A stretch of 64,000 nt of DNA, from positions 62,001-126,000 of the forward strand of contig JARGXX010000013.1 in NCBI GenBank assembly GCA_030374765.1. Direction: 5' to 3'. The translations under genes were made by a program, and so were the position numbers. The DNA comes from Agarophyton chilense (taxonomy: Eukaryota > Rhodophyta > Florideophyceae > Gracilariales > Gracilariaceae). Below are positions 12,236 to 61,817 of this stretch, piece after piece. Each line of letters opens with the position of its first letter. Position 1 is the stretch's first letter. Under the pieces are notes generated by a model. It was not told where the DNA came from. It worked only from the letters and a program-made list of their open reading frames with translations, and ran no database searches.

Positions 12236-12379
12236 GTGACTTGAGTTGTTTTTAAACATCCTCTTGTTATAATAAATTCTGTGCTTCTCGACTTCTTCGA
12301 GTTCTCGAATTCTTCGAATTATTTGACTTCTCGACTTCTTTGCCGTTTCGGTTTACCCAACTTGGGCACAATCTAAGTT

Positions 12380-12556
12380 TTAAGGTAACGATGTCCCGGC
12401 TCTTCGATGAAAGCGTATAATTTTGGACCTTGTCAGGTGTGCGACAGGTTCCGAAGTGTCCTCCTCAGAATTATATTCATACCATCGGACTTGATAACGG
12501 TAGTCTCCAATTGGAGTGATTTCGTGACGAACAACATGATCCACCACAAACGTCTG
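12380..12556 (-). pseudogene. chromodomain at the C-terminus of element B pol
   Basis: The minus strand reads QTFVVDHVVRHE, then YRYQVRWYEYNSEEDTSEP, then a helix HLTRSKIIRFHRR, ending at TAA 12380-12382. This is the usual order of a chromodomain, with Tyr/Trp positions and an SEP in place of the common WEP. The domain itself is open; the pol upstream of it is not. Confidence 0.75.
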
Positions 12557-21747: not shown

Positions 21748-21933
21748 TCATGGGTTCTTGGCGAAAGGGTTGTCCAGAGGAGTCAGTAATTCTTGCGGCT
21801 GGCTTCCCGTCCTCCTGCGGTCGCTATCGGTGTCAACCTGAGGTTCAGGCGACGTTATCGGCGTTGTCGTCGCAACTTGTCCTGCCGTAGGAGTCCTATG
21901 GTCTGGTCGGTTGGGTGGGTTTCCAGCATTCAT
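21748..21933 (-). pseudogene. start of element D1 gag
   Basis: The minus strand opens with an ATG near 21932. It encodes a Pro/Thr-rich start with RPDHRTPTAG and SPEPQVD, then DRRRTGSQ and FAKNP, then a stop at the insertion border. The same order (RPDHRTPTAE, SPEPQVD, DRRSTRSQ, FAENP) is found in D2 at 61939-62115. The length is only the first sixth of a gag. Confidence 0.7.
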
Positions 21934-22037
21934 AATGGCGGTTGGGTTCGTATTTCTAGTCCGTTGGTAAATTAAAACAAAGGCTAGAAGCCGTATAAGT
22001 ATTCTTTCTAGTAGTTCGTTCAATTATTGCTAGGGGA

Positions 22038-22055
22038 TTCTAAGTCGGGAGACCA
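22038..22055 (-). promoter_or_regulatory. primer binding site of D1
   Basis: The minus strand reads TGGTCTCCCGACTTAGAA three bases after the LTR end. It is identical to the D2 site at 61818-61835. Confidence 0.7.
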
Positions 22056-22058
22056 AAG

Positions 22059-22416
22059 TGTATCGAAATGACTGGTAGGTAAGCGTAGTGGTCTCAAACT
22101 TGGGTAGCGTGGTAGACCAAGTTCTGAGATTCGTTTTGTTGACGGCGGCACTCCCAGAGTACTTGATGCAATGAGCAGGTGTTCACTGTGTATTTATACT
22201 TTTCGAAGGTACGGAAACGATGGCTTGAAGACCAATTGGTGAAACCTTATGTACAAAAGGAGATACTGTAGTATCCTAACTGTGCCTACCCGATTCTAAG
22301 GGAGAAGCGTCACTCGAGGCTATTAAATATCAATGGAGAGGTGCTGAGATATTCCTTGCACCATAAGGCTATTCTATTACACTAAACAAAATAAAGTAAT
22401 TCTCTAAATATGTCCA
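22059..22416 (-). repeat. 5' LTR of D1
   Basis: This LTR of 358 bases is recognised by its alignment with 61466-61814, including the shared stretches CACCAATTGGTCTTCAAGCC and CAAGTACTCTGGGAGTGCCG. It contains a TATA box on the minus strand (TATAAATA at 22191-22198), the probable element promoter; D2 has lost it. Confidence 0.8.
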
Positions 22417-22436
22417 GCTGAGATCGGGCAGTCCAC

Positions 22437-22886
22437 GTGGCGTCTGTAAGATACCTCAGGATCTGGCGGCTTATAGAACTCCACCGTATTCGTTTCTCCT
22501 TCACAGTCAACATGTTTCGGTGTTTGAAGAGACAAAACACTAGCATACAGTATTATCGACCAAAAGATTCCCGATTGTACCAAGTGTCGATGATAGTATT
22601 TTCAGATGCAAATCGTATCAAAGATAAACGGCTACTGGGGTTCGTGGCTGGTCTTTTGTTCGGAGAGTTGAAAAAAAACTTCATTTTTCATCCGTTAGCT
22701 TGGAGTTCTCGCAAATTCAAAAGAACTATAAAGGCTCTTGATTCTGTAGATCTTTTCGCAACCGGTGTGGTAATATATGAGGAAATGTTACTGCTGCATG
22801 CAATAAATATGATTATTGATATAGAGGTGGGCCATACTGTGTTCGTAGACTCTGGGTGTAAGAGGGCAGGTGAGTCTCCCGTGTGA
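22437..22886 (+). pseudogene. Ty1/copia RNase H fragment
   Basis: This is a frame of about 150 codons. The segment VFSDANRIKDKRLLG, then LAWSSRKFKRTIKA, then DLFATGVVIYEEMLLLHA follows the order of copia-type RNase H: an Asp strand, the SSKKxKR segment and the AE(T/L) helix. The usual catalytic Glu helix reads LDSVDLFA, so it looks decayed. There is no RT upstream and no LTR that I can define. It is most likely the remains of a copia element into which neighbours inserted. Confidence 0.5.
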
Positions 22887-23606: not shown

Positions 23607-24400
23607 TGAAGTGCAACCCTCGTGAGGGCCGTTTTCCAGGACTTGGTTGTTTTTCCGCCTCGGGCGATACTTGTGAGATCTATGAGTAATACCGCTACTA
23701 GCGGGCTGGCGTAGCCAGGTGTATACGCGTTGTACGCGAAGTGCACCGGCGGCCGTGCGCCGTGGCCCCGATTCGGGTGTGAGTTACCCACGTGTACCAC
23801 GGGTGGCCCAGGACAGGTTGGCACAGCATAGCTGGATATTTCTCTATTTATTTAGCTTTATTACACTAGGTTAGGGAGCTCTTTGCAGTATTCTACACTA
23901 TATAGTGCCAGGGCGATCTCGGCCTGACACTCAGTAAACCTCCCCAACCAGGGTTCTTGGCTCTAAGTCTTTTTCCGCTTTCGCGAGTCTTCCCCACTCT
24001 ACGGAGGTGAAGCCGCGTTACTAACGGTAGACTTATCCACCCTGCGTCAACAGGAGACTCACCGCTGTTAGCTTGTATATCTTTCATACCACTGCCGTGT
24101 TCTCGCCCCAGTATTGGGTTTGCTACATATTTCTTTTGGCTCTCGTGGCCCATGCCCCCGATCGCCCCCACTGGGTGGTCCCCCCTTTATCACTTGCCCA
24201 CTCCCGTGGAATACAGCTCATACCTGGTCTGCTCCCTTCTAGCATCCCGCACTCTCCCCGCTTGGCGTGCCGGTAAACCTCGGCCATACACCCCGACTTA
24301 GTCGTGTTCACTCCGGAGAGGCTCCGTCGCCGTGCTACCCTCCTTGGAGGAAGACTCGGACATCTTCGTGTATTTCCGCCGCCCTTGGCGTTGCACTACA
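23607..24400 (+). repeat. 5' LTR of element C
   Basis: This LTR of 794 bases starts TGAAGTGCAAC and ends GTTGCACTACA. It is near-identical to 34586-35384. Confidence 0.93.
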
Positions 24401-24403
24401 AAC

Positions 24404-24421
24404 TAGTCTCCCGAATTAGAA
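24404..24421 (+). promoter_or_regulatory. primer binding site of element C
   Basis: TAGTCTCCCGAATTAGAA three bases after the LTR, a variant of the site shared by A, B, D1 and D2. Confidence 0.6.
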
Positions 24422-24560
24422 GGCTGGGGGGAGCTGGTTTGGTTGTTTTTCACATTGCTGTGCTGTCTTCTCTCGTCGAGATCTGCTTTCCAATTTCTTG
24501 GTTTGGACTCACTTGGTGGAAGCTTTTGTTGTCCTATTCTTAGTGGTCAACGCTATATCC

Positions 24561-26689
24561 ATGTCACGACTACCGTCGGAAGCGGAACCCGCGATCACGC
24601 GGAGCCGTTCCGTCAATGACGTGGTGCCTGCGGACCCTGGAAGGGTTCCCCCGCCGTTCCCTCAAGCCGCTCCGAAAGGCAAGAGTATGGGGTCGAACTC
24701 CTCCAAGAACAACAAGCTACCGCCTAAGGCGTCGAAGAATGGACCCAATTCTGGTGCTGGACCGGCCCCTGCCGTGGATGACCCGGCTCCTGCCGACGAA
24801 AAGGCCCAGAAAAACGAGTTCCACATCGACACCAACTCAAGTGTGAGGCAGCAGATCTGCGTAATGCGGGAAGCGCACAATGCCTTCGTGGAAGAGTTCG
24901 AAGCCTTGCGTTCCAGGTGTGATGGCTCTTCTAAGAAGGAAGTGGTTGACGACCTCCGCTTGTTGCGGGCGGACGTCAACACCCTGTTGGAATGTCTTGG
25001 TGGTCCCGCCGCCTACGTGGAAGGTGTCGAGACCCGATTCAATCGTGTTAGTGCCCGTCTCCAGACGTTAGAGCAAACCATTTTGAGGGAAGACGTCCCG
25101 GAGAAGCCAGTTGCTGTGTCGCACCAAGCGAAACACGAGAGGAAAAGGGACGATACCCGCCGTCGGCGTGGAAAGCGTGACAGCGATGACTCGGACTCGT
25201 CGAACTCCTCACGGTCGTCGCGTGGCTCTCACCATTCAAATGGGTCGGACTCGTCAGATTCGTCTTCTGAAGATGGCCATCGCAGGCGTTCATCCCGTTC
25301 TAAACGGTCGTCTGCCACCCAAGGTGTGATCCGCGCCTGCGAGAAGGGAAGAAAACACTCCGGGTTGAAGGAGCTGAAATGCACCAACCCCCTGTACAAG
25401 AAGTTGGTTTCATACCGATACTATCGGCTAGAGAACTCCTCTTTAGATCGCACGCCCCGTGGCACGGGTAGAGTGAAGGATTGCATAAAGCGTATGCAAC
25501 TGTCCCTCAGGAACCAGAGCTTTTCTGGAGAAGACCCATTTTGGTGTTGGATTTCCTTGCGAGGTTCGTCGCCGAAGCGGATATTCTCGGTATGACCGAA
25601 GGACAGGCGTTTATTGCACTCCCGTACTTTATGAAAGGCCTCGCCGAGGATCAATACAACTCTGTAAGAGGTTCGTCTAGAGCCTCCGAAGGAGAGGTAA
25701 CCTGCTGGCCGGAAGCAGTAAAATACATCTTGAGGTCCTACGCCACTAATCACGCGATTCAGTCGGCCATTCTCGCTCTTCGCGATACGCGCCAGAAGTC
25801 TGGAGAAACGGAAACCGAATTCTCGGTGCGCCTAAACAAGGCTTTCCACCGTAGTGTGAACGTACAATCCGCCGGAGAGCGCTGCACCATGTCCATCGAT
25901 GGACTGGACCCCGCTATCCGAACACTCGTGGCCCGTTACCGGGAAGACCGAAGGAAGACCACGTATCTGGAGTTGGTCCAACACGCGCAAGCGGAAGGTG
26001 ACGCTTTAAGAGCTCGTGCCCCCGGACACACGTCGCGAACCGCCAAGGCGTTGGTGATGGAAACGAAGTCGCCATCCCTATCGCTGGGTGCGATTGAGCG
26101 CCCCCAACAGGAGTACGACAACGTACACTTCGCCCGAAGCGATATCCATTCGGTCCCGACAACCGAACTACCGTCTACGTCGGACGACTCATATGTCACG
26201 GCCCAGGATGGACCCCTGCTGTACGCAGACTCTCCCCGTGTTCACGGACCTCGCATCCCGTAATCAAACGGTGCGCTCCGACAGAGTCGCCCTGGATGGA
26301 AGGATACTCGCCAAGCGGTGAAGTTCACGGATGCTCGCTCCGGTTTGCAGCCCTCACGCCCGGGACTCATATGCCATATATACTACGAACACGGTCACAT
26401 TTCACCGGACTGTATCCTCACAATGAGGGAATTAGCCCGAGCAATCGGTAATTATGAGGTGTTGACCCCAGTGGAAAAGCGGATTGTTCCGATGACGTCG
26501 TATCTTCGAGCGAAGATCGATTTTCCACGGAGTATTCCGGAGGCGAAACCACGCAATGCGTTGCTTTACCCTGCCGAGCAGGCTCCCGACCACCGCCCCG
26601 TTCCTTCAAACCCCGCCGCTGGCGCCCCATTGCTAGTGGTTCAGGATTCTGAGGCCCCGCCCCAGGCAGATGGGACTCAGGAAAACTAA
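24561..26689 (+). pseudogene. element C gag
   Basis: The first ATG in the gag frame is at 24561. The N-terminal region is Pro/Lys-rich and disordered-looking, with the family motif LLRADVNTLLECLG near 24960 and then a coiled-coil-like stretch. A basic Ser/Asp-rich linker (about 25140-25320) leads to the capsid-like region: LVSYRYYRL, FSGEDP, CWPEAVKYIL, ILALRDTRQKSGETE. A one-base loss after GACCC near 25535 shifts the frame. A TAA lies at 26261-26263. The knuckle reads CHIYYEHGHISPDC, with the second Cys replaced by Tyr. It ends CAG GAA AAC TAA. Confidence 0.88.
26678..26689 (+). promoter_or_regulatory. gag-pol -1 frameshift site of element C
   Basis: CAG GAA AAC TAA ends gag while the -1 frame is open across it (GKLISGVS). 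It is a variant of the CCG AAA AAC TAR of A and B at the same place. Confidence 0.5.
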
Positions 26690-27656
26690 TTTCGGGAGTC
26701 TCCCCTTCGGGAGAGGCGTCTCCAACAGCGAGGTTGACGACGCCCGAGGCGTCTCCGCCTCGCTCCCCGGTCACAATCCTCACGAGGAAACAGGCCGTCT
26801 CAGACGTGGACTCTGAACACTTTGGTGTTCTACGTCGACCGTTGAAACGTGTTCTTAACCGCCGGTTCCCGGATAGAGTCTTAGTAATGGCCAAGCGCTA
26901 TTACAAGGTGTATGCCGACCTTGGCCTTTCTACCCAGTTTATGGTTCGAGTCCTTACTGTTTTGGACACAGGTGCTGGTCCGAATTTCATCGTGGAGTCG
27001 CTGCTGCCCCCGCCCTTGCGGTCTCAGATCCGCCTTGGCGTGGCGCCCGACGTCGCGGACGCCAATAACAACCCGTTGTCAACGGTTGGAACCGTCGCTC
27101 TCGTCGTTCGCTTGGGCTCATTCGTGGTGAAACTCGACTTTATTGTATGCCTGAAATTGGCTGCCCCCATCATCTTGGGATGTGACTTCTGTGACAGATT
27201 CGTTGACGCCATAAGGCCCCGCTTAAAGCGTGTTGAGATGGAAGACGTCTCGTCGGTCCCGATTGTCCGTCGTCCGCTGCGGCGTGCCTCCAAGAAGCAC
27301 GTACCGCTCCCTGCCGCGCAGGAACCTCCACCCGCTTCTCGGGAGTCTACCAAGCTCCGCGTGGCTGCGTCTGTCCGAATCCCGCCAGAGTCCCAAGTAT
27401 GGGTGCGTGTCACTTCCCGTCAACACGGTTTACGAGTCATTCAGCCTCTCTCATCTCTGTACGATGGATATCAACTCGCCGTGGCGAATGGAGTCACGCA
27501 TGTTGTCCCAGACAAGCCGTTCACCGTGCTCGTTGCCAATCTGGGCTCCACCCCCCAGTCACTGGTGAAAAACCAAGTTAATGGATCGGTAATGCCTCCT
27601 CCCACGGCGATGGTCCCCACTAGGCTGACCGCTGCCGAAGTCCTCGGTCTCGTTCA

Positions 27657-27676
27657 CTCTAAGGAGGGGGAGAAAG
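27657..27676 (+). promoter_or_regulatory. internal polypurine tract 1 of element C
   Basis: CTCTAAGGAGGGGGAGAAAG in the protease-RT linker (SKEGEKA). Confidence 0.45.
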
Positions 27677-30600
27677 CTGCCGTCCAATCACCGAATGATT
27701 CGGAATTGAAACCTGCCGAAACAGAAAAGAAGCCCGTTCCGACGAGTTACGACCGGGTAGACCCCGTGAAAGAACTCAAGGAACTCGACCTCGGTCATGT
27801 ACCGGAGTCACACCGTGAAAGTCTGCGTGAGATGTTACGGGAGTTTACCACAATGTGGGATGGCTCTCTTGGTGAGATAAATACAACGGAACACTGGATA
27901 GATTTATTGCCGAACACCCAACCGGTGGCTCAACACCCTTACAGGGCAGGCCCCAAGGCTCGAGAAGAGGAACAGTTCCAAGTGGACAAAATGCTCCGAG
28001 CTGGAGTGATCGAACCGGCTCAGTCGCCGTGGGCATCCCCAGTGGTACTGGCTCCGAAACCCGATGGGTCCTGGTGCTTTTGCATCGACTAACGTCGCTT
28101 GAATGATGTTACCGTCAAGGACGTGTATCCGATCCCACGAATGGATGAGTACATCGACTCTCTCGGCACTGCTACCGTGTTCACGGCTTTGGACGCCAAT
28201 TGGGGAAATTGGCAGGTTCCCGTTAGGGAGGAGGACCAAGATAAGACTGCGTTTGTCTGTCTCTCGGGACTCTACCGTTTCAAACGGATGCCTTTTGGTC
28301 TAACCAATGCTCCCGCTACCTTTCAGCGTGCTATCGACATTTTGTTGGCCCGCTTTAAGTGGCGTACTTGCCTCGTCTATTTGGACGATATCATTGTATT
28401 CTCAGACAATCTGGATGACCATCTCACCCATGTCAGCGACATAATGACCACGCTACGTGATGCTGGAGTAACCCTCAAACTGAGGAAATGCGAGTTCTTT
28501 ACCGATACTGTGAAGAATCTCGGGCACATAATCCGTCCTGGACGTGTAATGATCGAGGAAGCTCAAGTGAGGTCCCTTCGCAAGGCGAAAGAACCCGCTA
28601 CCCAGACGGAACTGCGCTCCTTTCTAAGATTGTTCAACGTCTACCGACGGTTTATCACTAACTTCGCTGACATCGCGGCTCCCTTGAACGCGCTTCTGCG
28701 GAAAGGTCAACCACCTAAACTGGACCCCTTTACGTCCGCCCAGACGGATGCTTTTAACTCCCATAGGGAGGCTGTCACATCGGCACCGATTCTATCGTTA
28801 CCGAAACCCGGACTACCGTTTTCCGTGGACACGGACTCTAGCGACTACCAAGTAGGCTGTGCGCTCTTTCAAACTACTCCCGAAGGAGAACGCAAACCCA
28901 TTGGGTACTGGTCACGCTCGCTCAATGTCCACGAGCGGAACTACTCCGTGTCAGAGAAGGAGTGCCTCGCAGTTGTGTGGACCCTCTCTACACTCCGCCC
29001 CTACCTCATGGGTGTGCACTTTACCGTTTACAAGGATCACTCGTCCCTACGATGGCTCATGACCATCTCGGAGCCGTCAGGCCGCTTAATGCATTGAAGA
29101 CTCCGCCTCGCGGAATATGACTTTGAAGTGATCTACAAAAAGGGCACTCAGAACGCGCAAGCGGACGCGCTCTCGCGTTTACTCACGAATGGGGAAGCTC
29201 TAGCCGTCGATGACGAGGATATACCTTGCTTCGTCGTAGACGATGGAACACCGAGGGACCCGGATTGGTTACACGATGAATGGAACGAAAGCCCGGAAGC
29301 GGATGATGATATTGACGCATTGCTCGTCTCGGACGATTCAGAGAAACCCCCGCCGGGTAATTTTGTGCCGATACCCCCGGAGGAGATGGTCAGAGAACAG
29401 CAGGGTGACCTTTTATGTACGAAGATTCGCGCCTGGCTTAATGGCGGTGCACCACTCCCTTTCGATGTGAACGATCTTGGATACCTTGTCAGGACGGTTC
29501 AGTCATCCCCACAAGTCGTGGTGCCGCATACTCTGCAGTCTAGAGTTTTGCATCTATCGCACTATGTGAGAATTGGTGGACACGCCAGTGGACGGAAGCT
29601 CTACCTCACTTTGCGAAGGTATTTCTACTGGCCCGCCATGGCGGTGGATTTCTACGCAACGGTGCGGTTTTGTACCGAATTTGCTAAGAATCGGGTGAAA
29701 CTTCGCAAGTACTCAACGAAGTTGAAACTATTCCCGGCACGGGCTCCTCTCGAGTTTGTCGCCATTGACATCCTCGGTAAGCTCCTCACCACACGACGTG
29801 GACATAAGTTTTTACTCGTTATCACGGATCGTTTCTCAAAACTGGTTCGGACCGTACCTCTACGGAAGATATCCGATTTCACGGTTGCACAAGCATTTGT
29901 AACCCATTGGGTATTCGTCTACGGCCCGCCGGTTAATCTTCTATCCGATAACGGAAAACAGTTCGCATCGCGATTCTTCGAGGACGTGTGCAGGATTCTT
30001 GACATCAAGAACCTGTTCACAACGACCTATCACCCCCAGTGTAATGGGCAAGTGGAGCGGTTTCACCGAACGCTATTAGCGTCTCTTCGTTCTTACGAGG
30101 CCGACCACCCAAAGACATGGGATTTATATACCGACGCCTTGAAGTTCGCGTACAATACGCAGGTACAACGTACTACGGGCTTGAATCCATTCCAACTGGT
30201 CTTGTCCCGCCCTCCGCCCGCTGTCGCGTTAGAACCCCAGCCCACGCTGGATGCGTTCCCTTCCGTGATGGATTATCGCCACAGGTGGAAAGAGTAGCTT
30301 ACGAAGCTGATCCCGGTCGCCCGAAGCTCGATGGCTCGTGCCCAAGCCGCTTACAAGCATAATTTCGACTCTCGCGTACGCGGTAAGGCCCCGCCAATCA
30401 AAGCCGGTGACTTCGTCTTCGTCCGTAAGGAGTCCTGGAACCCTGGAAAGAAAAAGAAGCACAAGCTTTCTTCCGTCGCGGACGGTCCTTACAAGGTCAT
30501 TTCGGTGAAAGACGACACCATCGTGGTGGAAATTGTCGACGCTCATGAGCGGATCTCCCGCGACCGCGTTGTACTCGCCCGGCCACCGACGTTGGAAGTA

Positions 30601-30831
30601 ATCGAAATGGGTCAACAATCCCTCTCTGACGATGATGGTGCTCGGCACACAACAGTGGCTTAGCCCACTGCCGTGGTTTCCAGACCTTCTTCGTTACCAC
30701 ACCCTACCCGGGAACTCTCTGACTTGCCGATCTTATCAGACCAAGGCCAGAATGGCCTCTCTTCTCTCACGCCACGGCGCGGTGTCTACCCCCGCCCGTT
30801 GGGCGTTTCAACCACTCCCCATGCCGCTCCG

Positions 30832-30850
30832 TCTCAGGAGGGGGAGGAGG
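30832..30850 (+). promoter_or_regulatory. internal polypurine tract 2 of element C
   Basis: TCTCAGGAGGGGGAGGAGG at the start of the spacer (SQEGEEA). The core CTCAGGAGGGGGA is identical to the tract beside the 3' LTR. Confidence 0.5.
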
Positions 30851-32235
30851 CTCATAACTCTCGTCGAGAGACGGAAACCGCTTCGTCGCGTCATGACAAC
30901 CGTGGTGCACGGACTCCTGGACACACCAGCAAGAACAACGGTGATCCGGACGTCCCGTCTACTGACGTGCCATCTCCGCATTTGCGCGCTACAGCCGTTG
31001 CTGAACCCTCTATGGGAAGCGCCACCGCATCTGCGTCTGATCGCACTCCCCACGGGGACTCTGCTCGACAGGACGCACCACGTAGTGGAAACCCCCTCGC
31101 CGAAGCGAAACAGAAATCGTCGCAGGATGCTGTTCGCCCTCGCGATACTGGACCGGCTATGCCGTCGAGCGTTGACCCGCAGCCCGTGGGTCACGGTTCG
31201 TCGACACCAGCTACGCTGGAAAACTTAGAGCACGCCCTCGCAGGCCCCTCTAGGCCGAATCGATCGGACGTGGTCCCTCGTACTGTACGGCAGGACACAC
31301 CGGCTAAGCCGGGCAAGCACACCGTAGCAGACGGGAGATTCATACCCAGCACGCTTGATGCTGGTTCAGAACCCGCGCGCAGTGGCGGACGCACTCCGAG
31401 TGTCTCGGTTGACCCCGACAGCGTTGTCGAAGGCGCACCGGTCACCCCGGAGAATGTGCCCGTCAAGGACGGAAGCACCTCGTCGCCGAGTGAAGTTGAA
31501 CCCTCGAAAGGGATAGTTGAGGACGAACTCGCTCCCCGCAGGGGTTCCTCGCCGCGCACTTCGCCGCCCGTTGGTGAGGAAGGCACGGTTGACCCGGAGT
31601 TTCACACCCGTCGCGGTACTTTTTCGCCCAAGCGAGCAGACATACCGGCAGCGCCGTTGCACACGCCCTCATGTGAGGAGGCGGAACGCAGCACGGCGCG
31701 GAGTACTCCCAGCCATCAGCCGGACGTGTCACGTGACCAGACGACATCCGGCTCGGGAGATACGCCAATCAACGCCCAAGGCGGCTCACCCGGCAAGGCA
31801 CGACGCCCCGTGATGAAACCGCCTCCCGCGTCAAGTCCAGCACCGTTGCGACGGATTTCACCCCGACGACTCGCGGAACGCGACCGCGAAACCCAGCCTT
31901 GGGATTAGTCCGCGTTCCCCCGAAGGGTGGCCTCTGCACGAGAACTCTCGGAAAGCATTCCGAACCAAGAACTGGGAGAATTGCCCCACGGGAAGGCCTC
32001 CGGCCGAAGCCGTCGAACTAACGCTCTTCGTCATGACGCCTTGGAGGAAGCAACCCGCCAAGCGGCCAAGGCCACCCGGAACCCGGTTTGTTCCCCTACC
32101 CAGGGCATGGAAAGGCAACGCCAACCCATGGACCCCTCGGGGGAAGGGCACAGTAGCCCACACGCACCTGCGGACGTACACCGGTTTGGTTTGGTGACGC
32201 GTACACCGCAAGGGCGGAAAGTCTACGAGAAGGAG

Positions 32236-32390
32236 TTCGTGGTCGACACCATAGTGGAGCACTCATACCATCCGGATGGTTATATTCAACACCTCGTCCG
32301 TTGGTACGGTTTAGGGCCCGAATGGGATTCGGATGAGCCGATGGAACATCTCCCACGTTCGAAGGTGGTGTCATATCACCGCAGAACGCG
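32236..32390 (+). other. chromodomain of element C pol
   Basis: It reads EFVVDTIVEHSYHPDG, then HLVRWYGLGPEWDSDEP, then a helix with LPRSKVVSYHRR. The strand-strand-strand-helix order and the Trp/Tyr positions fit a chromodomain. It is open here but follows five stops in pol. Confidence 0.85.
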
Positions 32391-32612
32391 GACGGGAATC
32401 CAGGCATCGGTTGTTAAAGCCCAGGTTGGATAACACCCACCTCGGTGGAAGAGAAAAGAGAAGTAGGTTTGCTTGAGAACAGGCTAGTGAAGGAAGGTTT
32501 TGGGTTACACAAGTCACTTGGTTTTTATTCGAAGCTATCGATGGAATACCGAGCACTCGGAATACTACTCTAAGTCACAAGGGAAAACTCCCCATCGGGA
32601 TCGCGTGCCCCG

Positions 32613-34550
32613 TCACGGGTTCGGCTCACCGCCCCCGGGTTGGTTACCTCCCTGGAGGCGGGTGATCAAGGCCTCGCGCATCGCGGCAACATCGCCACTC
32701 GCTGCGTTGGTCCCCAGCCCCACCGGTCGCAGGAACTGGGAGATCACGGCCGCTTGACCCGCCAAAGCGGAGCTCGCATCGCCTGGGGCGGACGCCCCAC
32801 CACGTGGGAGATTCACCGGTGGAACAGGAGGTGGTCCAGCTACCGCGTACTCCGACCCAGCCCCCGCGGGGTTATCCAAATCCACGTATGGCGTGGCTGG
32901 CGTCCCCGCGTTATAGGGACCTTCCGCTTCGGATCCCTCGACCTCCGCCTCGGCGTACGCTTCCCCGTCGTCGGGTTCGTTGTCCACCATTGGATCGTCG
33001 CCGTCGTGGACGTGGTAATATTCATCCGCGTCCACGAAACCGATCGGATGCCCCTCGGAGATATGGCGTGGTGCAAACCGGAGTTCGTTCGCTTCCTCCG
33101 CGGAGATTTCGTGCCCTTCCCAAGGGTCAAAGTATACGAAATCACCTCCCAAGGGAGTACGCCTTCCTGGTGACAGGTCCTGACCCCGGCTACCCACGGT
33201 GCGCCCGCTTTGTTCAATCGGAACGGTGGTCCAGTCCAACTGGTCGATGTAATCGAGAAGACCCGCCACTTCTTCGGCGTTGGTTACTCCACCAAGGGGG
33301 AGGCTCAGGTCCAGGCTGCGAATCGCGGACCTCAACCAGAACGGGAGGAACCACAGTCTGTACTGGTCATACACCTCCCAGAGAATGAACACCGCCGCGC
33401 GGACTGCCCATTCGGTAATCACCACGGACCACAGTCCGGACTCGGGATCCTCGATGAGGTACGAACCGTAATACGTGATGACTGGTGGCAGCTCGATGTA
33501 ACAGCCCCGGCAGGCCTCGAGGTTCAACCACCACGGTGGAATGAGGACATAGTGACCCCGTCAGTCGGCCACGCGAAGGCGTTCGATCTCCACGTTCTGA
33601 TACGGGACCAAATACCCGAATCGGGATCGTGCTCGACGCTCGAAGCGGATCAGGGCGAGGAAGTTGGCCCGCGCAAGTCGACGCATGTAGCGGAATTCTG
33701 TCCGGATAATCGGTCGCGTCCGGCACATGGCCTCTTGCCGTGCTATCGGGATGCCCCTCCACGAGAGTGTTTCCAAACCCGCCAGGCGGTCGACGTAACC
33801 AATCTCACCTTGAGTGCGGTAAAGCCGAATGTCGGTGCCGAGACCATCGGGGATGGGATATTCGAAAGGAGCCTGGCGAAGCCGTTGATGCCCAAGAAGG
33901 ACGAAGGCCGCATGAGCGGAAGCCGAGGTTTCATTACCCCAGTGCGCCTTAGCGTGGACCGGAACCGCTACGCGGCGTCGCCAATCCAACGAAGTTTTCG
34001 CCACGGCCGGAATATCGCCCGGAAGCATCTGGTTTCCATCGGTGTACATCGCTATGAGCGCTTCGTTTAACACCGCAATCTGGTGGAACCACGGCGCAAG
34101 CTGGAGAACGGACGCATGATGCCGAGGATGGCGCCCGACAAGCATGTCGTATGGCGGCCACCCTCTCGGGGGGAACATTCCGTACGAAGCAGCAGCCACG
34201 TTCGCGATAGGAATCTGCGGTGCAGCCGATGACGCGCTTTGCGGAAGCGGAGCGGACCGAAAGCCGGAGAAGTACCCCGCAGGGAGACGGTTGGGTTGAT
34301 TGTTTTGGTTGCTCATCGGCGAGCGAAGAGGCCGGATGACCGGAAGAGGAGACCGGCGAAGCGAAAGACGATGCCGAGGAATCGGAGGACTGGCACGCGA
34401 GGATGCGGATTCGGTTGAGATGGAACGTGGAGAACGGTTGTTGCCAGGAGAGTGGAGTTTTGCCGCACTGCGTTTGTTGGCATCGGATGAAGTGGATCCC
34501 AGCGGGCTGGTTGCACTCTTATGCATTCGTCTCGGCGCGTCGCCCACCAT
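32613..34550 (-). pseudogene. antisense accessory gene of element C
   Basis: A frame of 645 codons on the strand opposite to gag-pol begins at ATG 34550, only 36 bases from the 3' LTR. It is broken only once, by TGA at 33561-33563. Across that stop it aligns codon for codon with the B copy (ERL, ten residues, then RGCY). The Ser/Pro/Asn-rich N-terminus of about 100 residues precedes APLPQS, APWFHQ, LPGDIP, LYRTQGEI, RPIIRTEFRY, RRARSRFGYL, VEIERL, RGCYIELPP, a Trp-rich block with EWAVRAAVFILWEVYDQ and GDFVYFDPWEG. An acidic stretch and a Gly/Pro-rich tail end it. The protein family is unknown to me. It converges on pol with about 180 bases between the stops. Confidence 0.8.
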
Positions 34551-34570
34551 CGCGGATGTCGTACTCGCGC

Positions 34571-34585
34571 CTCAGGAGGGGGATA
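34571..34585 (+). promoter_or_regulatory. 3' polypurine tract of element C
   Basis: CTCAGGAGGGGGATA immediately before the TG of the 3' LTR. Confidence 0.85.
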
Positions 34586-35384
34586 TGAAGTGCAACCTTC
34601 GTGAGGGCCGTTTTCCAGGACTTGGTTGTTTTTCCGCCTCGGGCGATACTTGTGAGATCTATGAGTAATACCGCTACTAGCGGGCTGGCGTAGCCAGGTG
34701 TATACGCGTTGTACGCGAAGTGCACCGGCGGCCGTGCGCCGTGGCCCCGATTCGGGTGTGAGTTACCCACGTGTACCACGGGTGGCCCAGGACAGGTTGG
34801 CACAGCATAGCTGGATATTTCTCTATTTATTTAGCTTTATTACACTAGGTTAGGGAGCTCTTTGCAGTATTCTACACTATATAGTGCCAGGGCGATCTCG
34901 GCCTGACACTCAGTAAACCTCCCCAACCAGGGTTCTTGGCTCTAAGTCTTTTTCCGCTTTCGCGAGTCTTCCCCACTCTACGGAGGTGAAGCCGCGTTAC
35001 TAACGGTAGACTTATCCACCCTGCGTCAACAGGAGACTCACCGCTGTTAGCTTGTATATCTTTCATACCACTGCCGTGTTCTCGCCCCAGTATTGGGTTT
35101 GCTACATATTTCTTTTGGCTCTCGTGGCCCATGCCCCCGATCGCCCCCACTGGGTGGTCCCCCCTTTATCACTTGCCCACTCCCGTGGAATACAGCTCAT
35201 ACCTGGTCTGCTCCCTTCTAGCATCCCGCACTCTCCCCGCTTGGCGTGCCGGTGAACCTCGGCCATACACCCCGACTTAGTCGTGTTCACTCCGGAGAGG
35301 CTCCGTCGCCGTGCTACCCTCCTTGGAGGAAGACTCGGACATCTTCGTGTGTTTCCGCCGCCCTTGGCGTTGCACTGCACTACA
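34586..35384 (+). repeat. 3' LTR of element C
   Basis: This LTR of 799 bases is near-identical to 23607-24400. The end carries a duplicated GCACT (TTGCACTGCACTACA). Confidence 0.93.
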
Positions 35385-35819: not shown

Positions 35820-38800
35820 TTGCCTGTCACCCAGGGGGGCCTGCCTTCCATGATGATGTTTCATCAACACATCCGCGCCTCAAATGTGGCTGCACACCCC
35901 ACTCCACGCGCAACTGTTGACTCCAATGTCACGGGCGGCAATCAAGAGGACGCAGTGCATCCAAATGCATCCGGTTCCCCCGTTAGGGCCTGCACCACAG
36001 GAGGTGCGGCTCGTTCAAATGTCGCAGCAGGTGAGACCTCTGGGAGACCATTATCTAGGACTAGGGGGCGGGCTAGGGGGCGGAGGAGATCGTGAAGCGG
36101 GGCAGGAACAAGGGGAAGGGGACGTGCGGGTCGTGGGAGGGGGGGGAGGAATGGTCACGACGCAAGCTATGGATGGACACTGAGTAGCATTGAATGCAAC
36201 AAGGTGGTTCTGGAGAAGGAGTTACGGGATAGCGTCATTCAGCATCGTGCTCGTTTGCTCTGCAGTGTATCCGTGCCCAACATGAAGGTTGAATGCAACG
36301 TCAAGAATCTTGCTCCGACGCGATGTGGGTTTGTTGTCTTGTTCGCCAATGGATTGCTAAGGCAATTGATGGAGTGGTTATATGAACGCATTCGTCTCAA
36401 CAATCTTTCTAATGACCCTGTGTCACTCTCTGACATGTATAGGTACCTCGCCGTCCTCCTCTTTTCTCACACAACTGGTTTTAGTTTTGAAAAGGCCATG
36501 TCTATTCTAAGAAAAGCAGGAAGCATCTCCCCGTCGTTAGAATCTGTCCGATTCATTGCCGAAAATGTTTTGGACTATCCTCCAACCGGCAGGGGCAGTC
36601 AGGAAAATGTTAGTTGGAATGCACAGAGGGATCAAACGCGGTATCTCACTGAATTTGAGACTCTGGCCTTCCGAGAAACTCGCAAAATCTTCTTCACGCC
36701 GTTGCACTTGTTGGCAACGCTGGATGATGATCTGTGCGGCACCAGAGCAACCGACAACCAGGTAAAAATGTTAAGCTCTCGGAAAGCAGACAAGGACTGG
36801 CATTCTGCGGATGCCCTAGCGGACGCTCTTTTCAGGATCGTGATTGCCATAAGGTTTCGGCGACGTGGGGAGTCGCAAATTGAATCTGTCAGGAAGCTAC
36901 TGGCATCGCTCATGGATGGGCGTGGGGAGCAAACTCTGACAGGGTGTATTGTTACAGCTGATCGAGGCTATGGAAAGGAAGCTATTATGGAGATACTGAT
37001 GGAACATGGCCTAGGTTTTGTTTTTGTCATGCCTGACCACATTTTGGGATGCCATCCCTTTGTAGCCAATTCGCTCCTAAATCCACTTCGAGGAGATTAA
37101 GAGGAAGAGGGGGAAAGCACATCAGACGAAAGAGATAGCCTGGAGGTGTCCGTGCATGCTGTACAAGAAACAGAAGGTGCGGCTTCAAATTCCCAGCGGT
37201 AGTCTTCTGTAGCAGACTCGTCAGTTCAGGGCGTTGATGTTTCCCGCGTCGTGCCAAGCACAGCAGCTGGAGAATCCCGTGGTGTCGAAAGAGATGCTCG
37301 GGAAGAATTGTTCGCTGGATTCGACAGGCGCAGGCAGTACGTCATACACGAGGACCCGATTTTGGGCCCAGAAGTGTTCTTTGCCACTAAGACTGCTAAT
37401 GCTTCTGCTCGAAGAGTAGGACAGAACAAGATTGCGGCCAGAGCAGTGAGGGAGCGTGGAACAGTTAAAATTTGCAAGTTACTCAGGTTTTTGTATACCG
37501 TACCGCCGGCATTGCAGAGCAGTTTGAACACCTGGGTCGCTGTGCCGCGATCTAACACAAACTTGAACAAAACTTTGTTCAGTGGTGGATGGCTAAGCAG
37601 CGATCATACAGTTCAATCTGTTCGGGAGATCGTGGAGGGCCGAGTACGTGAGGGTTGTAGTGTGCTAACCCTGGGTCAGCGATGCGCTGACTGGTTCGTG
37701 CTGCGCCAGTTCAGGGTAACAGGGACAAATGCTGGGCACTTGTTGATGGCGAATTCGGATGTTTTGCACATGATGGGCATGGAGGGTGGCACCGTTGAAG
37801 AGGAAAGGACACTGCAGCAATGGTTTGACGTCTTGCATCGGAGATGGTTCAGCTCGAAAGAGTCTACAGAGGCCATGATGAGGGGAACTATAAACGAACA
37901 AGCTGTTACTAATGCGCTGGAGGCGATGCCTTTTGTGAAGGCTTTCTATGAAGTGGGGATGGTGTCAGCTAGAAACTCGAGGTACCTTGCTTGCTCTCCA
38001 GACGGTGTTTTGTGTATGGATAAAGAGTGTTTCGGGCTTTGGTTTGAGGAGGATTTTATACAAATGGATGGAATGCGGATCGCGCTGGTTGCTGTGGAGA
38101 TCAATACTAAGGTGGCAGCAACAACGCTTGGAGAAGTGATGCAGTTGGCGTCTTTGGATGTCGTGCGTTGCACTTTTGGCGATGAAGTATTTCGGGAGTA
38201 TGTGCCTAAGGAGCACAGGGCACAAGTTTTACACCAGCTAATCGTGCTGGGCCTTCGCTACTCTATGTATGTTGTGGCTGCAGAGACTTGAATTGTCTAC
38301 TCAGTCCTCATAAAATGCACGGGAAGTATCCTTACCGCGTGCAGGCATATTATTGAAGACGCTGCAAGGCGTTTGGTGCAGTGGGCACATGAGGACGAAG
38401 TCTCTCTTCAGGCTTTGGTTACGGCAGAGTACATGGACCTGCTAAAGACTCGGCACAAGTTTTGGAAAATTGTTGACAAACATGTCCTTGACAACGGCTG
38501 TTTTCCACCCTTGAAGCTGTTAAAACACGCGGCACAGAGCTTCTATTCTAAGACTAAAGCCGGTGTAGATGGAGCCACGCAACAGAGAACCATTTTGCGC
38601 AGCTCAACCTCTCATTTCAAATGGGAGTAGAAAACCGTGTCGCAGACATTGAAGACGATTGCAATTAATTTCTTCTTTGAATGGAGAATGTATGAGCGAA
38701 AAGACTTGTTGCAGTCGTCGGAATCTTTCAAGTCACTAGACAACTATGGCAACTGTCTAAATAAGGTTCAAACAACGGCAAATATCATGTTTTACGTATC

Positions 38801-41230: not shown

Positions 41231-41446
41231 TCGCGCGCCTCGTGCCAGTTAAACTTCCTCTTTATTTATCACCTTTTCCTCCTCTTCGCACGCGCCTTCA
41301 TCCGTGGCATCTCCGCGTACTTTCCGCGTCGCGCATCATCCAATCTGTACCGTTATCACGCCTTATTTTTCCCTCCACGCCCTCCGTTCATGTAAGCCAA
41401 GTACGAGTGCAGACAGCCCGTACGTGTGCGACGTGAGCGAGCCGCC

Positions 41447-44400
41447 ATGCAATCCTCGCTGCCCTTCTCCACCATCCTCGTTCCCAATCGCGGTGAGATC
41501 GCCATTCGTCTCCTCAACGCAATCCACGCCCTCAACATCCAATCCGCCACCGTCTACATCTCTTCCGATGCCACTTCCCCTCACGTACGTCTTGCCTCAC
41601 GTTCCTTCTGTCTCGGCTCCGATATTTCCCTGTACACCGACGGAGAACACTTGCTCAGTGCCGCCAAAACTCTTGGTGTTGACGCTGTGCTTCCTGGTTA
41701 CGGCTTTGTTTCGGAGAGGCCAGATGTTGCTGCCGCATTTGAGCGCAATGGCATCACCTGGATTGGACCCTCTTCCGATGTCATCTCCTTGTTTGGCCTC
41801 AAGCACACCGCCAGGGACGCAGCCATTCGTGCCAATGTCTCCATTGTACCTGGAAGTGGTTTGGTGCACTCTGAGCAGCACGCCATAGCTGAAGCCACCA
41901 GTATCGGCTTTCCTGTTCTCGTCAAGGGCTCTGCTGGAGGAGGTGGCATGGGTCAGGCCATTGCCCACCGCCAATCACAGCTTTCCACAGCGTATCGCTC
42001 CGTCCTCAAGCAGTGTTCCACACTCTATTCATCTTCTGAGGTCTATGTTGAGAAGTTTGTGAGTCACGCGAGACATATTGAAGTTCAGGTGTTCGGCGAC
42101 GGCAAAGGAAATGTTCTTGTCTTGGGTGATCGAGAATGTTCAGTACAGAGAAGAAGACAGAAAGTGATTGAGGAGGGAAATGCTCCTAACCTATCCCCGT
42201 TGTTAAGGAAACAACTGAGAGAGGCAGCTGAAAGACTTTGTGCGCAGAATGATTATCTTTCAGCTGGAACCGTCGAGTTCATTGTAGACAGCGTCACGGA
42301 AGACTGGTACTTTCTCGAGGTCAACACAAGGTTGCAGGTCGAACATTGCGTCACTGAACTTGTTACTGGAATTGATATTGTGAAATGGATGATTCTACAG
42401 GCTGCGAACATTGACGTCCTATCCGATGTTGCCGTCATTGAACGCGGATATGCAATTGAGGCCCGCGTCTACGCCGAAAATCCCAGTAAGGCGTACGCCC
42501 CGTCGTCAGGAACCCTTTCCGAAATGGTGTGGCCAAAGCCTTCACTGTGCGAACAAACAGGCTCGCGAATTCGTGTCGACAGCTGGGCGGAACGTGGCTC
42601 CATTGTGTCTCCGTATTACGACCCACTGTTAGGTAAGATAATATCTTGGGGAAAGACACGAGCTTTGGCCATCATCGCGCTGAAGAAGGCTTTGGAGGTT
42701 ACACGCGTGGCTGGCGTAGCTTCGAACGTAGAGTTGTTGCGACAGACAATTGCTCATCCTCAATTTCTTACGGCTCGATACACAACCGACTTGCTGAAAA
42801 CGTTCTCACCCAAGACCATGGCTCTTGAGGTTGTAAAACCTGGCTTACAGTCGTCGCTGCAGGATTACCCTGGGCGAGTTGGATACTGGCATATTGGGGT
42901 TAGTCCTTCTGGTCCTATGGACGCGTATGCCATGTGTACAGCAAATGCGCTAGTGGGAAATCCCATCAGCGCCACCGCCTTGGAGATTACAGTGACTGGT
43001 CCAACCCTGCTGTTCCACTGTGATGCGATTGTTGCTGTAACAGGTGGCAGTTTTGTCATAACTACGGAAGATGGAGCTGTTCTGCCGAGCTGGACCCCTG
43101 TCAGAGTTGCATCTGGTTCTACCGTACAAGTAGCACAAGCACAGCATTCGGAAAATACCGCTAGCTCATCCGCTGCGATAGGAGGAAAGATTGGTTATGT
43201 AGCCATTCGAGGGGGTTTTGATGTCCCGAAATACTTGGGAAGCTCTTCCACTTTTCCAACAGGTAAATTTGGTGGTTTGACTGGCTCTTTTCTCGTCACC
43301 GGTGATTTTCTCCCTGTAGGCAAAGATCCAAACGCCGAGCACGAGATTGGAGAGCAAAACGGACTAAAATTCCGTTGGCCCATCGGAAAACAGCTTCCAG
43401 ACCACTTTATTCCAGAGTATAGTACTACAGAATGGACTGTCGCGGCTTTGAAAGGGCCCCATGCCTCGCTCGATTTTCTGCAAGAAGAGACGTTGGCAGC
43501 CATCTGGACCGCTCCGTACACTGTTCACCATGCCACCAATCGATTGGGAGCTCGTCTCATGGGTCCTGTTCCAAAGTGGACCCGGTTAGATGGTGGTTCC
43601 GCCGGCCTACATCCTTCTAATCTTCACGACTACGCATACGCACCTGGAGCCGTAAATTTTAGTGGAAATACGCCTATTGTTCTCATGCTTGATGGTCCAT
43701 CTCTAGGAGGATTCGTCTGCCCCATTACTGTTGCTACTACGGAGATATGGAAGATGGCGCAGGCTTCACCAGGAGAGCATGTTCGATTCAAGCAGGTCGA
43801 CTTTGACCAGGCCAGAAGTGCCATGTCTCATATGAAATCTCTGTGGGAAGCTGTTCGTTCTTACGATATGGAGGGTCTTGAACGGCTGGCGAGTAAGTGG
43901 TCACCACACTGGATTATGACCTCAAAACCTGTCGATGTACCTGCTGTGCTTGCCAGCCTGGATCCTGCAGAAGGAGATGAAGCTGAGATCAAAGTCGAAT
44001 ATCGTATTTCGGGAGATGAACATGTACTCGTGGAATACGGAGATATCGAGCTTGATCTTGCATATCGCTTTCGCGTACACATGCTCATGGAAGAGCTCCG
44101 CGTGCAAAGTTTCATAAGCGAACTTTGTCCAGGGGTGCGATCTGTTCTTATAAAGTACGATCCAGGCAAAATTCACTTGAACAATCTGGTGAAGATCTTA
44201 ACCGATATGGAGAGTGGTACTCTAGGCTCTGTGGAGAATGTTGTCGTTCCTTCTCGCAAATTGGAATTGCCACTGGCATTCGAGGACAAATGGACCCTGG
44301 AAGCCCAGAGCCGATATCTTCGTTCAATTCGACCGGATGCTCCGTATATGCCGTCGAATGTGGAGTTCGTTCGACGGATAAATGGCCTTGAATCAATAGA

Positions 44401-46603
44401 TCAAGTCAAAGACACAATGAATAACGCTCAATATATGGTCATGGGATTGGGCGACGTGTATCTTGGGGCACCTTGTGCAGTGCCTGTAGACCCCAGACAC
44501 CGCATGGTCACTTCCAAATACAATCCTGCCCGTACTTTTACTCCAGAAGGAGCTGTTGGTATTGGTGGAGCATACATGTGCATATACGGCATGGATTCGC
44601 CAGGAGGTTATCAGCTCACAGGTCGCACGATTCCAATATGGGACAGTTATGGAAATATCCCTGAAAAACGCCGCGGCTCACCGAAGGACATTCCATGGCT
44701 CTTAAGGTTTTTCGACCGTGTTACCTTCTTTCCAGTGTCGGATGAGGAGCTCGAAAATATTAGATCGGAATATCTTAAGGGCAATTATCAAATCAAAATC
44801 ACCGAAGAATCTTTTTCCTACAAGTATTACAGACAATTCTTGGAACACAGCGCAAAGAGCATCGGAGAATTTGAGACAAAAAGAGCGATAGCGTACAATG
44901 AAGAACGCTCTAGATGGATTGAAAAAGGGGAAGGAGAAAGCACTGCGGCAGCTCAGCACGCCAAAGGAAACGGTGATGACAACGGGCCTGGGTCGAAATC
45001 ACTGAGCGGTGACCTACCAATTGGAACTGGATCTTTACCCCCAGGTCATGTTTACATAAGGGCCGGAATGTCTGCCAATGTGTGGTCTGTGGATGCGGGC
45101 GAAAGCCAGAGCGTTTCGAAGGGTCAGCCTTTGTTCACTCTCGAAAGTATGAAGGTTGAAATCACAATCGAGGCTCCGACCTCCGGTTTTGTCGAACGAA
45201 TCTCCGTCAAAAAAGGTGACGTTGTCTCCCCAGATACAGCTCTATGTGTTCTAATATCATCAACTGAGAATGTGATTTCTCAGTGCGACGTTTCTTACTT
45301 ACGAAGCTTGTATCATTCAAGAATCTTCAGTGCAAAGCAAGTGATTGAAAACGTCATGAGGAAAGTGGCGAACCTTGAAAACGTTTTCACGTCGTTGGCT
45401 ACGGAGGCTCAAATATCCTCTCAGCTTCAGGCTCTGGAAGTCGGTCTTCGTAATCATCGCCCAATGCCCTTGTTTGGAGTACCATTTGTGGTTGGGGCCA
45501 ATATTGACGCTTTGGGCTTTGAAACCCACCCTGATCGTCCCGGGCGTCCGTATACTTCCAAAGAAACTTCTCCATTGGTTCATTGTGTCCAAGAGGCCGG
45601 GGCAGTGCTCGTAGGAAAGACAACAGAAGAGCAGTTTAACCTCGGCTATTCTCATTGTGAAACTGGAGGGGAACAGTTGCAAAACCCGAAGTATCCTGGC
45701 AGTATCTGTGGTGGACATGGATCGGCTGCTGTTGCTGTTTCTGAACAGGCTGCAAGCTTTGCAATAGTAGTCGACAGAAATGGAAACTCAACCAATGCAC
45801 CAGCATTTACCTCTATTGTTGGAATGAAAGTCACGGAAGGGTTGCTACCAGTATCTAACAATTCAACTGACTGCGCCTCCATTTTTGCAAATAATGCGAT
45901 GGACATCAAACAGATACTTACGGTCTGTCTTGAAGCGCGGACGAAAACATCACCTATGCTCCGCCCGCTACCAAACTGGAATAAAGCGGCCGGTATGTAT
46001 GACCGAGTGACGATCGGAACTCTTTCCACTCAAGGTGAAGAGCTTGCAACGGATGCTACTTTTAATGCAGTTCCAGCATATCAAAAAGGAATTAACATTC
46101 TCGGAAACCACCAGAACGTTATCCGAGAAGTTGATATTTCACCGTTCGAGGTCGCCGCCTCTCTTTGCCAGGAATACCCTGTCCTCCTTCTGAAACTCGA
46201 AGAGCTGCATGATGCCTTTCGCAGCCAGCCCAAGGATTTGCTACCGAGTGTATTGCAAAGAATCCGACCGTTAGAAAACATGTCCTCATTGTCAACGGGG
46301 ACGGCTTTGTCAAAGTTGGAACATTGCGTGCGAGATGCAGAAAGACGTGTGTGGTCCGAAGTGGATATTCTCTGTCTGCCTGTGATAACGATTCCGAATG
46401 ATGCCAGTGAAGTATCACGTAATCTTCGAAGAGCAACGTCTTCTTTGAAGCACTACGCTCAGCTTGTGACATGCATGGACCTCTGTGCTCTCACCTTACC
46501 ATTATCATCAGAAGAGGAAAATGCTGCCCCAGGAGGTATTATGCTTGTCGCTCCAATGATGAGGGAAGAAATGCTTCTTAGAGTAGGCAGTCAATGGCCG
46601 TAA
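41447..46603 (+). CDS. urea carboxylase fused to a catalytically degenerate allophanate-hydrolase-like domain
   Basis: This intronless gene encodes 1718 residues. ATG 41447 is in good context (GCCGCCATG). Residues 1-450 are biotin carboxylase: an ATP-grasp GGGGMG loop, HIEVQVFGD, RRQKVIEEG and EVNTRLQVEH. From about 460 to 1080 come the KipA- and KipI-like urea carboxylase domains (QDYPGRVGYWHIGV, SGPMDA, LEITVTGPT, VEYGD). The biotinyl domain has the modified Lys in ESMKVE (residue 1236). ATP-dependent carboxylation of urea to allophanate is the family reaction. Residues 1300-1718 have the amidase fold, but the catalytic Lys of VKDNID is Gly (VVGANID, residue 1350), GGSSSG reads GGHGSA and the nucleophile loop reads NGNSTNAP. 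The amidase is therefore probably inactive. Yeast urea amidolyase has the opposite domain order. The C-terminal allophanate hydrolase domain is missing. Confidence 0.92.
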   Translation: MQSSLPFSTILVPNRGEIAIRLLNAIHALNIQSATVYISSDATSPHVRLASRSFCLGSDISLYTDGEHLLSAAKTLGVDAVLPGYGFVSERPDVAAAFERNGITWIGPSSDVISLFGLKHTARDAAIRANVSIVPGSGLVHSEQHAIAEATSIGFPVLVKGSAGGGGMGQAIAHRQSQLSTAYRSVLKQCSTLYSSSEVYVEKFVSHARHIEVQVFGDGKGNVLVLGDRECSVQRRRQKVIEEGNAPNLSPLLRKQLREAAERLCAQNDYLSAGTVEFIVDSVTEDWYFLEVNTRLQVEHCVTELVTGIDIVKWMILQAANIDVLSDVAVIERGYAIEARVYAENPSKAYAPSSGTLSEMVWPKPSLCEQTGSRIRVDSWAERGSIVSPYYDPLLGKIISWGKTRALAIIALKKALEVTRVAGVASNVELLRQTIAHPQFLTARYTTDLLKTFSPKTMALEVVKPGLQSSLQDYPGRVGYWHIGVSPSGPMDAYAMCTANALVGNPISATALEITVTGPTLLFHCDAIVAVTGGSFVITTEDGAVLPSWTPVRVASGSTVQVAQAQHSENTASSSAAIGGKIGYVAIRGGFDVPKYLGSSSTFPTGKFGGLTGSFLVTGDFLPVGKDPNAEHEIGEQNGLKFRWPIGKQLPDHFIPEYSTTEWTVAALKGPHASLDFLQEETLAAIWTAPYTVHHATNRLGARLMGPVPKWTRLDGGSAGLHPSNLHDYAYAPGAVNFSGNTPIVLMLDGPSLGGFVCPITVATTEIWKMAQASPGEHVRFKQVDFDQARSAMSHMKSLWEAVRSYDMEGLERLASKWSPHWIMTSKPVDVPAVLASLDPAEGDEAEIKVEYRISGDEHVLVEYGDIELDLAYRFRVHMLMEELRVQSFISELCPGVRSVLIKYDPGKIHLNNLVKILTDMESGTLGSVENVVVPSRKLELPLAFEDKWTLEAQSRYLRSIRPDAPYMPSNVEFVRRINGLESIDQVKDTMNNAQYMVMGLGDVYLGAPCAVPVDPRHRMVTSKYNPARTFTPEGAVGIGGAYMCIYGMDSPGGYQLTGRTIPIWDSYGNIPEKRRGSPKDIPWLLRFFDRVTFFPVSDEELENIRSEYLKGNYQIKITEESFSYKYYRQFLEHSAKSIGEFETKRAIAYNEERSRWIEKGEGESTAAAQHAKGNGDDNGPGSKSLSGDLPIGTGSLPPGHVYIRAGMSANVWSVDAGESQSVSKGQPLFTLESMKVEITIEAPTSGFVERISVKKGDVVSPDTALCVLISSTENVISQCDVSYLRSLYHSRIFSAKQVIENVMRKVANLENVFTSLATEAQISSQLQALEVGLRNHRPMPLFGVPFVVGANIDALGFETHPDRPGRPYTSKETSPLVHCVQEAGAVLVGKTTEEQFNLGYSHCETGGEQLQNPKYPGSICGGHGSAAVAVSEQAASFAIVVDRNGNSTNAPAFTSIVGMKVTEGLLPVSNNSTDCASIFANNAMDIKQILTVCLEARTKTSPMLRPLPNWNKAAGMYDRVTIGTLSTQGEELATDATFNAVPAYQKGINILGNHQNVIREVDISPFEVAASLCQEYPVLLLKLEELHDAFRSQPKDLLPSVLQRIRPLENMSSLSTGTALSKLEHCVRDAERRVWSEVDILCLPVITIPNDASEVSRNLRRATSSLKHYAQLVTCMDLCALTLPLSSEEENAAPGGIMLVAPMMREEMLLRVGSQWP

Positions 46604-61814: not shown

Positions 61815-61817
61815 TTT

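Follow-up and report, generated by a model that had tools for sequence, protein, structure and literature searches.

The window analysed here, a 64,000-nucleotide stretch of DNA, is part of contig C13 (G+C 49.8%) of the Agarophyton chilense genome (79.8 Mb, 135 contigs), an alga also named Gracilaria chilensis. It harbours three LTR elements, referred to as A, B and C. Element C occupies positions 23607-35384 and is bounded by a 5′ LTR (23607-24400, +) and a 3′ LTR (34586-35384, +), the latter starting with TGAAGTGCAAC, ending with CTACA and being the presumed source of the antisense transcript discussed below; the pair is 99.5% identical over 794 bases. The gag region (25481-26260, +), named from its position, is 58-62% identical to the corresponding stretches of A and B and has no Pfam match at E 0.001. 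It is followed by what is presumably the protease region (26803-27699, +), 51-64% identical to that of B and without a Pfam match, the label coming from its position and from a motif. The reverse transcriptase (RT) with RNase H (28099-29097, +) was recognized by Pfam PF00078, PF17917 and PF17919, and the integrase (29128-30297, +) by PF00665 and PF17921. The pol part closes with a chromodomain-like stretch (32203-32430, +), where the Pfam Chromo match stays below the curated cut-off (E 1.3e-4, 22.2 bits vs. 25.1; at another locus of the genome, L065, E 8.2e-4). The host element is a chromovirus-like Ty3/gypsy element, as assigned by its domains (RT-RNase H and integrase by Pfam, a sub-threshold chromodomain at the end of pol) and by their order, which is that of Ty3/gypsy by position.

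On the opposite strand, at 32613-34550 (−), lies the gene that is the subject of this work. Translation of 34550-32613 (−) gives 645 codons plus a stop with exactly one internal stop, just as the preliminary description of this DNA had stated, and other copies of the family are intact. The chromodomain-like part stops at 32430 and the gene ends at 32613, so that gag-pol and the antisense gene are convergent and do not overlap. Only 35 bases (34551-34585) separate the antisense start codon from the 3′ LTR; they include the polypurine tract (approximately 34572-34585), which was named from position and composition.

Elements A and B carry relatives of this gene in poorer condition. In B, the gene was placed by the preliminary description at 10433-12235 (+); the similarity spans 10556-11928 (+), where the identity to an intact C-family copy is 34% and then 50%, with a frame change near 11260. 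Next to it are a chromodomain-like stretch (12356-12565, −; 43% identical to that of C and containing a stop) and, on the other side, an LTR (9532-10346, −) that is 92% identical to its partner at 19641-20454. In A, only the first half of the gene was found (542-1138, +; 35% identity, the sole matching part). The second half is absent, because the chromodomain-like stretch of A (1232-1447, −; 42% identical to that of C) begins at 1232. Thus, of a gene first described as present in all three elements, C retains the 645 codons, B a frame-broken relative and A the first half, while the location assigned to it, opposite to gag-pol and between the chromodomain and the 3′ LTR, holds throughout: in A, B and C alike the chromodomain-like part is on the other strand.

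The eight conserved protein blocks listed in the same description were searched for as loosened, hand-typed patterns. All eight occur in order in C, seven in B and four in A, so that their presence in every element, as originally claimed, applies in full to C; base shuffles of the antisense stretch of C yielded at most one of the eight blocks in 500 trials. Nor are the three elements copies of one family, since B and C, with antisense proteins 34-50% identical, represent separate families. Between C and B, the identity is 43% for the chromodomain, 52% for the integrase, 62% for gag and 73-75% for RT, which places the divergence of the antisense protein in the chromodomain/integrase range, the identity being below that of gag and RT.

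Several other features of the window deserve mention. In the pol of element C, approximately 600 Ser/Pro/Arg-rich codons at 30300-32200 (+) separate the integrase from the chromodomain-like end, which is long by the chromovirus standard; a frame of at least 439 codons spans the second half of this stretch plus the chromodomain in three of eight copies (L002, L003 and L006). Near element C, an ORF at 37251-38288 (+) has a weak match to a YqaJ-like recombinase (23.2 bits vs. a Pfam cut-off of 22). A urea amidolyase, i.e., a fusion of the urea carboxylase and amidase domains, is encoded at 41426-46603 (+) in a single frame of 1725 codons, with 62% identity to the Gracilariopsis chorda enzyme and 74% to a EukProt transcript. 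Outside the three elements, positions 21773-22505 and 61369-62099 form an inverted repeat pair of about 730 bases (77% identical). Finally, the stretches 50887-51326 and 55233-55672, lying in ORFs without a Pfam match, are related (67% DNA identity) and possibly represent a tandem gene family.

Copies of the gene and their place in the elements

When the genome was searched with the C protein, 68 places were scored, the best of 2,003 first-look candidates, so that all counts given here are lower bounds. The C family has at least 66 copies covering at least 639 of the 645 residues. Intact copies, which had been proposed as a check of the gene's reality, do exist: 24 of these 66 are free of stops, and 15 of the 31 distinct copies examined are intact. 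With a shorter core query, at least 82 copies of the C family were listed at ≥92%, these being the top 82 among 150 matches. Three C-family genes with equal scores lie within 18 kb on another contig (C22:1511066, 1518208 and 1528425), with RT matches in step, possibly owing to duplication (tandem or segmental) or to the assembly.

Four further groups in the same genome bear the gene. Group D, with about 640 codons, comprises at least 20 members (counted by eye) that are stop-free in the match and have an open frame of at least 600 codons. Group E, for which at least 71 places were scored, is nearest to a protein of G. chorda, P0001. A P0003-like group yielded at least 150 scored candidates, and members among the matches listed are 78-100% identical to P0003, a protein that is itself 42-43% identical to C and E. 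P0003 is deposited from A. chilense and does not come from an independent species, because it matches a place in this genome with 100% identity over 245 residues. With the family of element B, the gene is thus found in the groups C, D, E, P0003-like and B, in addition to P0001 of G. chorda. The intact C, D and E copies share 35-51% of their residues (that is, they differ at 49-65%), and a full-length open frame is retained in many copies and in these three diverged families.

The place of the gene in the C family is nearly fixed relative to the RT on the opposite strand. Among the 82 gene cores, 75 have such an RT past the 3′ end of the gene at 2.7-5.0 kb, and in 56 of these 75 the distance is 4364-4402 bases; the remaining seven have no RT in the list. 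The RT set consisted of 88 picked matches (74 of 121, at ≥90%, plus a further 14 of 150, the others being left out), and 13 of the 88 lack a listed gene, so the prevalence of the gene as counted from the RT side is 75 of 88. An earlier, overlapping listing had paired 57 of 68 C-family genes with an RT at 1.8-3.7 kb. In group E, 25 of 71 genes have a listed RT within 20 kb when a list of 121 RT matches, mostly of the C family, is used; 21 of them are in the expected orientation (one at 7.4 kb) and four are not. The stretch read in E covers the LTR side, with the gene, a polypurine tract and the beginning of the LTR. In group D, as represented by L065, the chromodomain-like ORF and the antisense gene are convergent, and a location opposite to gag-pol between pol and the 3′ LTR was observed in A, B, C and L065.

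In each of the three families, the start codon is separated from the LTR by a short distance that includes a polypurine tract (35 bases in C, 79 in D and 47 in E). With only 35-79 bases available between the start codon and the LTR, transcription of the antisense mRNA probably begins within the 3′ LTR, on its opposite strand; this closeness is most simply explained by a promoter in the LTR itself. A TATATA stretch in the LTR could serve both strands and is too weak a signal to use.

Purifying selection between families

The codon alignment was derived from the protein alignment, and the codon model (iqtree2, GY+F3X4) was fitted to 563 codons. With C, D and E represented by a single intact copy each, omega is 0.126, a value that is only roughly right, the synonymous sites being saturated; it is 0.35 once the remaining intact C copies and another D copy are included. 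Simple counting between families gives 0.70-0.75 for synonymous differences (again saturated) and 0.34-0.47 for nonsynonymous ones. The uncorrected pN/pS in the frame of the gene is 0.48-0.65, whereas it exceeds 1 in all but one of the five other frames.

Within the C family the picture is different. Among the 31 distinct copies, private changes show a dN/dS of 0.90-0.94 and include 17-19 stops. Changes present in at least two copies give 0.68-0.69 with one or two stops (p 0.057-0.073) and those in at least three copies 0.62-0.71 (p 0.13-0.32), neither being significantly below 1; over the 15 intact copies, omega is 0.72. The C burst is so recent that it cannot reveal selection on its own, as mostly post-insertion changes are to be expected in it. 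The ratio in the antisense frame, proposed in the preliminary description as a check, is therefore low between families (0.13) and nearer to one within young C (0.72, about 0.9 for private changes). It is this difference between the low between-family value and the private changes of C which argues that the protein is selected between insertions, and near-neutral decay after insertion combined with constraint in between is the pattern expected of a gene needed for spread. Purifying selection thus operates between the three families C, D and E. Taken together, the intact copies, the fixed architecture and the between-family ratio bear out the initial suggestion of selection on the antisense protein, and we are nearly certain that this is a real protein gene under selection.

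Two explanations would dispense with the protein. A frame open by chance, or as a shadow of a gene on the sense strand, might be invoked for element C, where a sense ORF of 298 codons lies opposite to the antisense gene, and one of the three sense frames does show a pN/pS of only 0.59-0.73 between families. Yet in this frame the third positions fall together with those of the gene, so a low ratio is expected there, and it is interrupted by 16-21 stops; both other sense frames exceed 1, and stops occur in all three (3 to 21 per sequence). The frame-wise ratios together with the failure of the shuffles to produce the blocks led us to reject a chance open frame, and the sense-frame ratios and stops to reject a sense-strand shadow; this explanation retains a negligible probability. 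It is also conceivable that the antisense RNA matters rather than the protein, in that transcripts from the 3′ LTR would pair with the genomic RNA and the resulting dsRNA would limit the element. The geometry of the gene and the LTR fits this, and non-coding antisense transcripts are described for other elements in the available passages of PMC7264820, but such a mechanism predicts neither an omega of 0.126 or a codon-position bias, nor the many stop-free frames of at least 600 codons in families sharing about a third to a half of their residues. We regard it as very improbable.

The protein and its possible role

The C protein starts with a Ser/Pro/Arg-rich segment (residues 1-100, net charge +14), continues with an Arg/Trp-rich middle containing long conserved blocks, and carries an acidic segment at residues 501-550 (net charge −16) before a conserved end. 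The D and E proteins share the Arg-rich middle and the acidic tail, without a strongly basic start. Many Arg, Glu, Asp and Trp residues and one Cys (C350) are invariant across five sequences. In the Pfam search, none of the five family members had a match at E up to 1, a result on which a TRP28/SMC-like antisense ORF was rejected, and no PHROGs family matched at the same threshold, so that a phage-type protein was likewise rejected; the best match among the PDB sequences had E 0.88, and a pattern scan of viral contigs gave 26 pattern matches and no relatives. The preliminary description had failed to recognize the family, and as far as Pfam, PHROGs and the PDB sequences go, it appears to be new. 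Kyte-Doolittle means over 19 residues peak at 1.70 in C and 1.45 in P0001, while the corresponding segment reaches 0.93 in D and 1.17 in E; no segment is consistently hydrophobic enough for a membrane, and a consistent membrane protein was rejected.

A search of 5.8 billion proteins, in which the best 8,000 candidates by word sharing were scored, returned three relatives: P0001 (G. chorda, 617 aa), P0002 (427 aa) and P0003. P0001 shows 63% identity with E and 50% with C. It corresponds to G. chorda BWQ96_03215, deposited as a hypothetical protein, and red-algal annotations may therefore list element genes among those of the host.

We propose that this is an accessory gene of a red-algal chromovirus-like Ty3/gypsy lineage, and our best guess is an accessory regulator. 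According to this proposal, the 3′ LTR would start the antisense mRNA, so that the LTR would work in both directions and the antisense protein could be made independently of gag-pol. The protein might then bind nucleic acid or a nucleoprotein complex, a weaker step suggested by composition, and might regulate the element by acting on its transcription, on its silencing or on the nuclear stage of replication. Our estimate for the whole proposal, with the emphasis on the observed part, is a probability of about 0.5. That the protein is a regulator acting on nucleic acid is put forward tentatively, given its composition and the parallel with the plant antisense ORFs and HTLV-1 HBZ.

Other roles for the protein have to be weighed against this. 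As a suppressor or evader of host silencing, it would bind RNA or block RNA-directed silencing and would be expressed before gag-pol; the Arg-rich conserved middle and the coexistence of several multicopy groups in one genome are in keeping with such a role, which is unlikely given that neither Pfam nor PHROGs places the protein in a family. An enzyme of an unrecognized fold, acting for instance on RNA or DNA, is comparably unlikely: the invariant Arg, Glu, Asp and Trp residues and C350 would suit an active protein of this kind, but the profile searches at E up to 1 and the PDB sequences produced no relative. Still less probable is a structural or envelope/movement-type particle protein. Its location between pol and the 3′ LTR is that of env, but the gene is on the opposite strand and the protein has no consistent membrane segment. 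Returning to the accessory regulator, a bolder form of this reading would see a red-algal chromovirus lineage with bidirectional LTRs, in which the outward strand of the 3′ LTR makes a dedicated ancient regulator whose protein family and fold are unseen elsewhere, kept since before the Agarophyton/Gracilariopsis split and representing an independent parallel to the HTLV-type antisense regulator; we consider it possible but rather doubtful.

The role of antisense genes in LTR elements is treated as an open question in the available part of PMC7264820. The present protein is long, its sequence is conserved between families in which half of the residues or more differ, and dozens of intact gene copies exist in a single genome; the idea of an LTR promoter and the role of the protein are both directly testable in red-algal elements. 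Moreover, the family it represents may be missing from repeat libraries.

Comparison with known antisense genes

In the literature searched, mostly outside subscription journals and in part as excerpts, no antisense gene in a red-algal LTR element was found. The accessible text of PMC8282616, PMC5970526, PMC12502185 and PMC12477816 mentions no antisense gene of such elements; the word "antisense" occurs 0 times in that of PMC8282616 and PMC5970526, and its use in PMC12477816 concerns small RNAs. Red-algal transposons do carry ParB/DNA-methyltransferase proteins, and giant EnSpm elements are known, according to the excerpts of PMC12477816 where these are cited. They are likewise cases of accessory proteins on red-algal mobile elements but belong to other element classes, and their proteins are, by name, different ones.

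Outside plants, Zhao et al. (2011) reportedly described Boty-like elements of Botrytis with an antisense gene, brtn. The Boty antisense gene is also mentioned in the part of PMC7264820 available. By description, it resembles the red-algal case as a retrotransposon antisense gene beyond the plants. A viral counterpart, mentioned in excerpts of PMC7264820 and PMC11963269, is the antisense gene HBZ of HTLV-1. Its promoter lies in the 3′ LTR. It shares with the red-algal gene the antisense position near the 3′ LTR, basic and acidic segments in the protein, and a transcript from the LTR, which in the alga is inferred. The host of HBZ is a retrovirus, unlike the red-algal element, and no bZIP was detected in the red-algal protein (Pfam, E up to 1). 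The HBZ reading frame overlaps other viral genes and its transcript can be spliced, whereas the red-algal gene is one uninterrupted frame.

The closest parallel is offered by plant Ty3/gypsy elements, for which the preliminary description had rightly noted antisense genes: the aORF-3R of Grande (GENE23), RIRE2 and Retand (ORF4/TRP28), read in antisense between pol and the 3′ LTR, as described in the available parts of PMC7264820 and PMC11963269. Their function is given as unknown in excerpts of PMC11963269, where regulatory roles are proposed and GENE23 of Grande is reported as nuclear. The nuclear protein of Grande is described, in the passages available, as having its own promoter in the region upstream of gene23, whereas the red-algal start codon abuts the LTR. 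The TRP28 domain of Retand (PF04195) was not detected in five red-algal members (Pfam, E up to 1), and Retand is described in the same partial sources as a non-chromovirus lineage, whereas the red-algal pol ends in a chromodomain-like stretch. The hosts, too, are plants in one case and a red alga in the other. Nevertheless, place, orientation and conservation across families are the same, and by these three features the red-algal gene belongs to the aORF-3R kind.
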